Shown here: positions 28,921 to 60,034 of the stretch, in pieces | Layout: every line of letters starts with the position of its first letter | Position numbering within the stretch: the stretch's first letter is position 1 | NCBI GenBank assembly: GCA_945883495.1 | Contig: CAMCXS010000001.1 | Span: 1 to 64,000 of the forward strand | DNA: 64,000 nt | Origin: Akkermansia muciniphila | GTDB lineage: Bacteria > Verrucomicrobiota > Verrucomicrobiia > Verrucomicrobiales > DEV007 | Direction of reading: 5' to 3' | Notes under the pieces: model-generated | The model's database searches: none | Seen by the model: the letters and a program-made list of their open reading frames with translations, nothing else | What the model was told of the DNA's origin: nothing | Position numbers and translations under genes: made by a program

Positions 28921-29726
28921 TCAACTAGCCACTTGAACCTCCAAAAAGGTAGGGCGCTTGGTCCTCCAAGCGCCGGTCTCAGGTGGCGCCGCATCGACGG
29001 TGGCGGCTGGTCTGGCGTGAATGGCCAACAGCAACGCTTCTTCCTCGCCGTAGCGCTCGATTGAAAACTTGGCGGTCCGCCGATGGTTGGTCTCATCCAC
29101 CCAGGCGGCCTGCCAGTAGCGGTGGATTCTCCCCGCTTCGGTCTTCCCCACCACCTGGCTCACTCCATCGACACCGGCCCCAAGAGCTTTTTCCTCGTGC
29201 AACCGGCAAAGCGCCAGGACATAGTCCCGGTAATCTCTCGCCATCTCCAGCGCCCGTGCTTCTCCCCCCGATGACCGGTCGGGAAAATGCTTCTGGTGCA
29301 CTTGGCCCTTGAAAGTGGGGCGCACGTAAAACCCAAAATTCTTTTCTCCGGCTGAGCGATTCGCGTAATCCCGAAGCTCACCTCCGCCGTCGTCTCCACC
29401 TTGTGATTTCGCGGACGATGGACGGCAATCACGCGATTCGCTGCGCGCAACCAGTTCTCGGTTTCACGGGTCACCTTGATCCAACCCAGGTCGTGAAATC
29501 GCCCGGAGCCCAACTTGAGGATCAAGCAGCTGGCCCCCTTTGCTTCAGACGTCAGTTCCAACACGCTGCATGCTTCCGGCGCAATGGCAGCTCCGTGGAA
29601 ACAATCCTTACCTTCGCCTTCGTCCAACAAAATGGTTCCCGTCGCGGGGTCAATCGCCACGATTCCTTGCTCTTGATCGATGAAAAGCCCGTAAGGCTCC
29701 GTTCGCAGCGCCTTAATTCGCTTCAT
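28921..29726 (-). pseudogene. Frameshifted AP2-domain protein gene
   Basis: The start at ATG 29726 has GGAG four bases upstream. The frame reads well for about 100 aa (MKRIKALRTEPYGLFIDQEQ; later LGSGRFHDLGWIKVTRETEN). It then loses sense near 29400-29440. The +1-shifted frame continues with KNFGFYVRPTFKGQ and two AP2/ERF-like modules, KHFPDRSSGGEARALEMARDY and YWQAAWVDETNHRRTAKFSI plus YGEEEALLLAIHAR. No start codon exists upstream in the second frame, so a frameshift is the simplest explanation; sequencing error or programmed shift are alternatives. Bacterial AP2 proteins bind DNA and are often linked to mobile elements. A REP-like hairpin lies inside the last 20 codons. Confidence 0.6.
28949..28974 (+). 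repeat. REP-like element, GTAG-headed hairpin
   Basis: GTAG (28949-28952) is followed directly by GGCGCTTGG-TCCT-CCAAGCGCC, a perfect 9-bp stem with a 4-nt loop. It has the same orientation as the element 45 bp upstream and sits inside the 3' end of the AP2-type gene remnant. Its stem sequence is shared with the hairpin at 31354. Confidence 0.6.
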
Positions 29727-30105
29727 GTGTCTCCGTAGAAGCGATACCCCGCAATCCCTCCGATTGCGCAGCGTTCCAACCGATCGCCATGTGTCCGGGG
29801 TCATGATCACTCTTCGTGCCGCGTCCCCGCAACAGCGCTGAAATCGTTGATTCGCTTACCATGGCTTGGGAGTTCGCCTCGGGTAGAATTCAACTCAGGG
29901 CCAATCAGTGCCAGCTTCCTTTGTGACACAGCCGTCTGCATGTCAACCGCCATTCAAGAATTGCGGCAAATCACGAGGATAAAGTCGTCCACCAGATCTT
30001 CTGGACAGTGCGCCTTTGCCCCGTCTTCCAGATCTGGTTGTGATCGCCACCAACCATGTTGCATTTGGGGCACGGAGAGAGCTGCATCCGACCGGCAGGC
30101 GCTGG

Positions 30106-30399
30106 GGCGAATTTTGCATCGAGCGGCATCAACGGCCTGTTGCCGCCGCTCGATTGCGCATCGACCGGCCCTGGCGAGCCTCGGAGATCGCTCGATGTTG
30201 TATCGAGGCACCTCCACAGGCTGCGCGACCCGCTCGATGCGCAATCGAGGCACCTTCACGGTCCTTGGAGGTTGCTCGATTTTGCATCGAGGGGGCTCGA
30301 CGGCTTGGAGACGCCGCTCGTTTCCCCATCGAGACACTTCACCAGCCCGCGAAGCCCGCTCGATGCGGCATCGATGCGTGTTCCCAGAGGAGAAAGCTG
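30106..30399. repeat. Tandem array of seven 42-bp units with palindromic core (array 1)
   Basis: Units start at 30106, 30148, 30190, 30232, 30274, 30316 and 30358, exactly 42 bp apart. Each begins with a dyad of the form GCTCGAT-N5-ATCGAG (for example 30190-30207 and 30232-30249); the first and last units are the most diverged. The remaining 20 bp per unit are more variable, with partial similarity (CTTCACGG-like beginnings). All three plus-strand frames are open through the array because 42 is a multiple of 3. The frame of the downstream DUF6261-like gene runs through it as a 14-aa repeat (ARCxIEA-like). The rest of the gap (29727-30105) shows no gene; an AT-rich leader lies at 30408-30453. 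Confidence 0.85.
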
Positions 30400-30453
30400 C
30401 GCCGACGCAAAAAATACTTAGGATGTATTGACTATTTCCTTTCTTACTCTAAC

Positions 30454-31242
30454 ATGGACCTCAACATGAAAACTTCACCTCTCCAGCCCATCCTGTTCAA
30501 CCAACTGCAGTACACATCGGAGCAACTCTTCGACGTCTACGCACAGCTGCGGACTCTTTGGGAGAAATCACCGATCGTTGCCCAGGATGCGATGTTGCGG
30601 CAGGTGACCGGGCATTTCAATGAGGCGCACGATACACTAGGCAAGTGCTTGGGCCGCATCCCCAACAAGCCGGGAACGGAGGCGATCCGCGCCGCCGACG
30701 AAGAACGCGACAACCTCTGGATGGGCTTAAATGGCGAAATCTCCGCCAAAGTCCGCCTCAGCGATCCCAACCGCCGTGCCGCCGCGGAGCGCCTCAACAA
30801 ACTCATCTCGGAACGGTTCGATCGCACCCTCCACCGCCTGGATCTCGAAGAAAACTCCACCGCCTTGGAGCAATTCTTCGCCACCATCGATGGCAGTAAG
30901 GAATCCCAAGGAGATCTCGCCCTGCTCGGTCTCGCCATCGACTGGTATGTGCCATTGAAAGCCGCCCAAGAGCGGTTCAGAAACCTGGTCGCCAGCTCCA
31001 AAGAAGACGCGGTCAACCGGGAAACCCTTCCGCAAAGCCGCGTGGCCAGCCAACAAGCCGCCCGCAAACTCCGCCTCATCATCGATCTCTGCGAAGACCA
31101 CGCCGAAGAAGGCCGCGAGGCCTACATCCAGCTCCACCGGAGCATCGAGGAAATCATCAGCGGCGTGCGGACCAAAGCCAAAGCCACCGAAACTCGGGAC
31201 CGCAAGAAGCGGACAGCGGTTAAGACGGCGTTGGCTTCTTGA
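30454..31242 (+). CDS. DUF6261-like hypothetical protein, downstream of repeat array
   Basis: This protein of about 262 aa (ATG 30454, or 258 aa from ATG 30466, MKTSPLQPILFNQLQYTSEQ) is predicted almost entirely helical. It has no signal peptide or membrane segment and ends with a Lys/Arg-rich tail (ATETRDRKKRTAVKTALAS). It resembles the DUF6261 family as I remember it; no function is known to me. The frame stays open upstream through the 42-bp array to 30016, so an N-terminal repeat extension is formally possible. The start at 30454/30466 is favoured by the TTGACT hexamer at 30428 and by composition. The array-gene pairing is the main clue to its role. Confidence 0.65.
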   Translation: MDLNMKTSPLQPILFNQLQYTSEQLFDVYAQLRTLWEKSPIVAQDAMLRQVTGHFNEAHDTLGKCLGRIPNKPGTEAIRAADEERDNLWMGLNGEISAKVRLSDPNRRAAAERLNKLISERFDRTLHRLDLEENSTALEQFFATIDGSKESQGDLALLGLAIDWYVPLKAAQERFRNLVASSKEDAVNRETLPQSRVASQQAARKLRLIIDLCEDHAEEGREAYIQLHRSIEEIISGVRTKAKATETRDRKKRTAVKTALAS

Positions 31243-49428: not shown

Positions 49429-49470
49429 GCCTATCGGTTGCCGTCTCAGGCTCCACGGGCTGCGGGATGA

Positions 49471-49637
49471 CATTCCGGGCTCGGAATGGGCGGCTGCAGC
49501 GGTGCGGGAGGACATTCCGGGCTCGGAATGGTGACTGCAGCGGTGCGGGAGGGCATTCCGGGCTCGGAATGGGTGGCTGCAGCGCTGCGGAAGGGCGTTC
49601 CGGGCTCGGAATGGACAGCTGCAGCGCTGCGGGCGGG
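49471..49637. repeat. Tandem array of four 41-42-bp units with palindromic core (array 2)
   Basis: Units start at 49471, 49513, 49554 and 49596 (spacings 42, 41, 42). Each begins with the perfect dyad CATTCC-GGGCTC-GGAATG (one arm reads CGTTCC in unit 4). A second palindrome follows, GCTGCAGC in units 1, 3 and 4 and CTGCAG in unit 2, and a G-rich end closes the unit. A partial unit end (CTGCGGGATGA) precedes the first. The units are much more alike than those of arrays 1 and 3, so this array looks younger. It fills the 490-bp gap between convergent sulP and the YfgM-like gene, which otherwise holds only hairpins. Confidence 0.85.
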
Positions 49638-59700: not shown

Positions 59701-60034
59701 CCCGCGCAAACATCCGCATTCTCAGAATTGACGCCGCAAGGCACGTGCGGAGCCCCGCACATGCCCCGTACAGCCCGAAATGCCACGTGCAACTCTCCGC
59801 ACCTGCCTATTTGTGTCAGTTTCGACACGTGCGGATCTCCGCACCTGCCATTTCCGGCCTGCAAAGCCACGTGCGGATCGCTGCAGCTGCCATTTCAGGC
59901 CTGAGTGAGCACGTGCAGCTCTCCGCACTCTCAAATCTGATCCGGAATGCCACGTGCGGAGAGCTGCACTCGCAAAAATGCACCGACACCCCCAGGTGCG
60001 GCTAGCTGCACGTGCCAAAACCGTCACAATTGCC
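59701..60034. repeat. Tandem array of about eight 41-42-bp units with palindromic core (array 3)
   Basis: CACGTGC-type unit starts lie at 59742, 59784, 59826, 59868, 59910, 59951 and 59993 (spacings 42, 42, 42, 42, 41, 42), with a diverged unit at 59701. The first 22 bp of each unit form an imperfect dyad, consensus CACGTGCGGANCTCCGCACG. About 20 bp of variable sequence follow, though two units share CCATTTC.GGCCTG. The last unit overlaps the 3' end of the metallophosphoesterase gene. Apart from this array and the REP pair, the 435-bp gap 59567-60001 holds nothing recognisable. Confidence 0.85.

Follow-up and report, generated by a model that had tools for sequence, protein, structure and literature searches.

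Iteron arrays and plasmid partition sites are helically phased repeats that lie beside the gene of their binding protein. The arrays described here resemble them in that helically phased repeats adjoin the gene of a putative binding protein, but they are chromosomal, number tens of paralogous pairs that are unrelated in sequence, include solo copies between convergent genes and have no recurrent ParA- or Rep-like neighbour gene. The nearest known logic is RAYT-driven REP biology, the 'REPtrons' of REP/BIME palindromes and RAYT (TnpA-REP) genes (PMC3733652, PMC2817692, PMC8266576). Like REPs, our arrays consist of short palindromes scattered through intergenic DNA close to the 3' ends of genes, with a cognate gene beside the source copy, dispersed solo copies and co-variation of palindrome and protein. 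Unlike REPs, they are partnered by an all-helical DUF6261 protein or a second helical family rather than an HUH/Y1 nuclease, carry no GTAG/CGTC tag, and have units running strictly head to tail at 40-43 or 21 bp. Membership of the REP/RAYT group was rejected for want of the transposase and the tag, even though some arrays have RAYT genes nearby. In the part of its description available to us, the BrickBuilt minisatellite-MITE of Porphyromonas gingivalis has a 23-nt unit, a leader, a tail and terminal inverted repeats, and forms one sequence family at about 19 loci (PMC4596501). That part shows the same dispersed, intergenic tandem arrays but reports no dedicated partner gene, whereas here many array sequences each have their own gene paralogue and no terminal inverted repeat was found. 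Neither of these nearest described elements, REPs (PMC3733652) or BrickBuilt (PMC4596501), fits. A CRISPR array was also rejected, since the stretches between the dyads repeat as well and no neighbour gene recurs except DUF6261.

The window, a stretch of 64,000 nucleotides on contig C1, comes from a genome of the order Verrucomicrobiales (6.46 Mb, 206 contigs, 20 DUF6261 genes). Its array contains six copies of the dyad form GCTCGAT-N5-ATCGAG at a pitch of exactly 42 bp, plus a decayed seventh at 30106 (Table 1). A pattern search of both strands allowing up to two mismatches gave 12 matches against a shuffle mean of 2.7, none of 100 shuffles reached 12, and the dyad score of the folded units exceeded that of all 300 column permutations. 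The array and its pitch, proposed in an earlier note made from the letters alone, are borne out by these searches. The same note had the array ending 54 bp before a DUF6261-like gene, a TTGACT hexamer in the AT-rich leader between them, and the frame of the gene open over the whole array. All of this holds: the gene belongs to PF19775 (E 1.1e-16; 61.6 bits, gathering cut-off 27; the sole Pfam family found), the hexamer at 30428 forms part of a promoter-like site, TTGACT-16-TAACAT, and the open frame spans 30016-31242 (408 aa), translating the array into RCCIEA/RCAIEA/RFCIEG repeats. Contrary to the note, arm mismatches are not confined to edge units, the fifth unit (30316) also having one. To the left of the array, broken-up ORFs at 28921-29810 on the minus strand are perhaps a decayed gene; the one checked had no Pfam match.

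Table 1. Positions of the array, gene and solo arrays in the window, and loci grouped by the side of the gene on which the array lies.
Feature	Position or loci	Strand	Basis or remark
Phased dyad array adjoining DUF6261 gene	30094..30399	+	seven 42-bp units, first one decayed
Decayed dyad, unit 1, GGCGAATTTTGCATCGAG	30106..30123	+	sequence
Dyad GCTCGATTGCGCATCGAC	30148..30165	+	pattern search
Dyad GCTCGATGTTGTATCGAG	30190..30207	+	pattern search
Dyad GCTCGATGCGCAATCGAG	30232..30249	+	pattern search
Dyad GCTCGATTTTGCATCGAG	30274..30291	+	pattern search
Dyad GCTCGTTTCCCCATCGAG, one arm mismatch	30316..30333	+	pattern search
Dyad GCTCGATGCGGCATCGAT	30358..30375	+	pattern search
AT-rich leader, promoter-like TTGACT-16-TAACAT (30428-30455)	30400..30453	+	sequence; TTGAC-type leaders comparable in many paralogues
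DUF6261 gene, 262 aa, C-terminal tail ...TALAS	30454..31242	+	Pfam profile; AlphaFold model
Solo array, 41/42-bp pitch, CATTCCGGGCTCGGAATGG	49459..49637	.	between convergent SulP permease (+) and TPR protein (-)
Solo array, 42-bp pitch, GTGCGGA..TCCGCAC	59727..60020	.	same type as array of DUF6261 paralogue L029, contig C76
Array directly upstream of DUF6261 gene	window, L014-L016, L019, L021, L025-L027, L029, L104, L111, L119, L120, L122		
Array directly downstream of DUF6261 gene	L010-L012, L103, L105, L115, L118, L124, L126, L127		

Arrays were measured as self-match at lags 40-43 within 84-base windows, with a threshold of at least 48/84 in the source genome and at least 60/84 in other genomes; 346 windows of 3.4 kb, drawn from a 1.2-Mb sample of the source genome, served as background. 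An array of 41/42-bp pitch was found within about 1.3 kb of 15 of the 20 source-genome DUF6261 loci; in the background, 22 of the 346 windows had one (odds ratio 44, p 7e-13). One of the five loci without an array is cut by a contig end; another, L017, resembles in sequence the single DUF6261 copies of the congeners G001 and G002, which adjoin a DegP-like protease gene and also have no array. A profile built from the source-genome paralogues detected DUF6261 in eight further Verrucomicrobiota genomes, where 14 of 18 loci (near-identical copies L105 and L107 of genome G393 included) have an array with a pitch of 40-42 bp and a score of at least 60/84, and a fifteenth has a weak array at a contig end. 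Linkage is thereby seen in nine genomes. Arrays beside other homologues were the key test set by the earlier note, and their presence supports selection on the DNA rather than on a peptide. In an all-against-all comparison of neighbouring ORFs no third gene was kept at the loci; DUF6261 alone recurs. The array may lie upstream or downstream of the gene, and so has no single positional role. Of the earlier proposal of an operator or template site with the protein as its partner, the pairing is supported by this linkage; a strict operator is too narrow a reading, because arrays also occur downstream or solo between convergent genes. Just upstream of the array of L016 lies an Acido-Lenti-1 RNA (RF01687; L016:655-699, minus strand), and CAGGCCCAACGGGCC-like sequence follows the array of L010 and precedes that of L021.

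What is kept between loci is the pitch and usually the dyad; the array sequences themselves are unrelated, close paralogues excepted. Nearly every step from unit to unit measures 41 or 42 bp, single-base indels being rare, and noncoding tandem repeats in the source-genome sample have periods concentrated at 41-43 bp and, in a second group, at 21 bp. These numbers would correspond to about four turns of B-DNA and, for the shorter period, about two; 41 bp gives 10.25 bp per turn, so the phasing is approximate. Dyad symmetry is significant singly in 14 of 28 DUF6261 arrays (combined p 5e-14), the other half showing no individually significant dyad, and is also present in the solo arrays (combined p 6e-12). 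In addition, 21-bp arrays occur in the source genome at C3:29811, C7:204, C8:122, C8:16209 and C9:48410; some have dyads (GAGGTGG..CCGCCTC), several are flanked by convergent genes, and ORF calls over them are probably spurious. Noncoding 72-bp tandem repeats occur at C2:141992-143208 and C9:29581.

Such dyads could fold into hairpins, and the array might be transcribed as a hairpin leader or 3'-UTR recognised by DUF6261 or a nuclease, with solo arrays as terminators or mRNA stabilisers. One clade does have arrays right behind the stop codon, and solo arrays sit at gene 3' ends. However, non-complementary arm positions read in the gene sense comprise 47 G-T and 40 A-C; lacking a G-T excess, they give no sign of the G-U tolerance expected of RNA stems, and the transcribed hairpin leader put forward earlier is not supported. 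A strict helical-turn pitch would serve no purpose in RNA, a search over the arrays of eight loci matched no Rfam family at gathering score, and the DUF6261 array of the window and several other upstream arrays precede a promoter-like leader, which would place them outside the gene's own transcript. We consider a role as RNA unlikely, though it keeps some plausibility.

DUF6261 is not the only partner. Contig C5 has at its end an array that adjoins a gene for a second helical protein without a Pfam match (family B, C5:144808-145740), which has about 14 paralogues in the source genome (loci including L164-L174); upstream arrays of 21- or 41/42-bp pitch are found at 6 of 15 family B loci (p 2e-4). 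RAYT-like Y1_Tnp genes are also found near arrays: four of seven loci (L156, L158, L159 and L163) lie within 1.5 kb of a 41/42-bp array, with a chance of about 6e-4, and three further genes of no assigned function stand near arrays beside RAYT genes. The arrays could then be REP/BIME-like elements, palindromic, intergenic, 3'-biased and dispersed, that RAYT (Y1 HUH) transposases mobilise in trans, with DUF6261 as a passenger. Against this, of 46 unit consensi, 4 contain GTAG and 18 contain CGTC, where chance alone would give about 13; G393 has array-linked DUF6261 yet no Y1_Tnp, G005 has 36 Y1_Tnp yet no such array in its sampled DNA, and contig C1 of the window has no Y1_Tnp match. Arrays beside RAYTs are, moreover, also near helical genes of no assigned function. 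We regard mobilisation by RAYTs as doubtful.

Solo arrays share the types of the gene-linked ones: three of the window type (C50, between ispF and hemB; C13; C21), two of the L029 type (window 59727-60020 and C2:892) and one of the L010 type (C3:1). In a hand-curated list of gene orientations, 10 of 14 solo arrays from the sample have convergent genes on either side, where 16-22% would be expected (p 1e-4 to 6e-6). The idea that they are remains of full units was rejected: no DUF6261 or family B relic lies beside those of the sample, C50, C13 and C21. The array-bearing ispF-hemB gap of the source genome corresponds to a gap of 22 bp in G001 and to an array-free one of 256 bp in G002. Samples of 0.35 Mb from G001/G002 and 0.35 Mb from G005/G012, the latter two having no DUF6261, contained no noncoding array of 40-43-bp pitch. 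Genome G693 has at least six DUF6261 genes and arrays that include a solo one between convergent genes; its sample comes mostly from DUF6261 contigs, so that array density there is a biased estimate.

The placement of arrays also bears on plain autoregulation, in which DUF6261 would be a repressor and the array, immediately ahead of a TTGAC-type promoter, its multi-site operator. In the window the array stops 54 bp short of the gene with a promoter-like site in the gap, and many paralogues have similar leaders; yet the array follows the gene at no fewer than 10 loci, and solo arrays keep away from promoter regions. Autoregulation appears a rather poor candidate.

Array similarity follows protein identity (Mantel r 0.61, p 2e-4), a signal that comes nearly all from pairs above 60% identity; below 60%, array likeness is about that of chance. 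The paralogues on C30 and C58 have 1119 bp in common, made up of leader sequence (91 bp), the gene and a downstream array, in unrelated flanks. The DNA common to C6 and C22 starts 2 bp past the stop codon and reaches the outer part of the array, again between unrelated flanks, and C6/C39 and C39/C22 show the same pattern; C5 and C99 have somewhat longer DNA in common. Since paralogues in unrelated flanks have common DNA only over array, leader and gene, we conclude that these disperse together as a unit of about 1.1 kb, whose ends are read from homology decaying at 74-84% identity and are not base-exact. No target-site duplication, terminal inverted repeat or terminal motif was seen at the stop-codon or array side of the aligned units.

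Neutral minisatellites grown by replication slippage, by chance beside an expanded gene family, would give tandem arrays with decayed edge units such as these, but the odds ratio of 44 with recurrence in eight other genomes in unrelated sequence, a period that seldom departs from 21 or 40-43 bp, and an array and leader still alignable between diverged paralogues make this improbable. That the array encodes an N-terminal domain of 14-aa repeats of the DUF6261 protein, another suggestion of the earlier note, is hardly credible: the frame is open over the array in the window and in L015 and L021, but any stop-free unit stays open at a 42-bp period, the many 40/41-bp arrays cannot hold frame, many arrays lie downstream, and stop codons cut off most upstream arrays (between array and gene in L014, L016 and L024-L027).

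Collectively, these findings point away from a coding repeat and towards DUF6261 and its array as a DNA element of two parts that has not been described before. We see about an even case for array and gene forming one bipartite dispersing element, in which the protein would act on the cognate phased array in duplex form. The partners would be the all-helical DUF6261 gene product and about 3-10 head-to-tail units with centres every 40-43 bp, roughly four helical turns, or, for part of the second family, at a spacing of 21 bp, two turns; the dyads would thereby come to lie on one face of the duplex. We infer direct binding and cooperativity: most likely the DUF6261 protein, or a complex that it nucleates, would engage the cognate double-stranded array cooperatively along that face. 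Solo arrays of the same type may be trans-acting sites or non-autonomous offspring, and array copying or maintenance, silencing and DNA organisation are candidate outcomes of the putative complex. More tentatively, and a little short of even confidence, we propose a new class of dispersing element in which all-helical families (DUF6261 and at least one unrelated-looking second) each have a private phased dyad array as duplex-DNA target, array sequence and protein turning over rapidly together and the solo arrays making up a set of sites across the chromosome. This is the first functional lead for DUF6261, and a gene-plus-array module recurring in Verrucomicrobiota that conserves pitch and not sequence. 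If the protein reads the array, the many paralogous pairs in this one genome would be a ready set for studying co-diversification of proteins and DNA sites, and the solo arrays between convergent genes could represent either a new level at which the chromosome is organised or a lineage of selfish elements.

DUF6261 is a Pfam family without assigned function that is common in Bacteroidota. It was not found in plasmid, phage and viral collections, and an alignment-based scan of GTDB contigs gave one DUF6261 locus, in an Akkermansia-labelled MAG. Within the scope of our literature search, outside which lay most subscription papers and all preprints, no association of DUF6261 with arrays was found; a single paper among 5.39 million mentions the family, under a title on Streptococcus oralis and its resistance to daptomycin. 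AlphaFold2 models the window protein confidently (pLDDT 93) and as all helical. A fold search of the PDB with both helical families gave no convincing match and no familiar DNA-binding fold, a profile search of PDB sequences no match below E 0.02, and PADLOC and NCBIfam searches only weak matches, none meaningful. The basic tail of DUF6261 is mostly limited to the source-genome clade, homologues of other families having net charges of about -4 to -23; that these proteins are mostly not basic counts against simple electrostatic DNA binding.

Most upstream-array DUF6261 paralogues and most family B proteins of the source genome end in [GASE]-L-x-[SAGN]-COOH (window 31228-31239, for example). This tail occurs in just 8 of 797 other sampled proteins, one of them a family B relative, and is missing from the downstream-array clade (L010-L012) and from genomes of other families. 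Its Leu codon varies, so the tail is conserved as protein, and the idea of a DNA motif kept at the stop codon was rejected. Presumably it resembles the LAA/LVA degradation tails (degrons) of the ssrA type. The leaders of L010-L012 contain a GTGAC-N6-GTCAC dyad about 75-90 bp ahead of the DUF6261 start codon, for example GTGACGAAGTTGTCAC.
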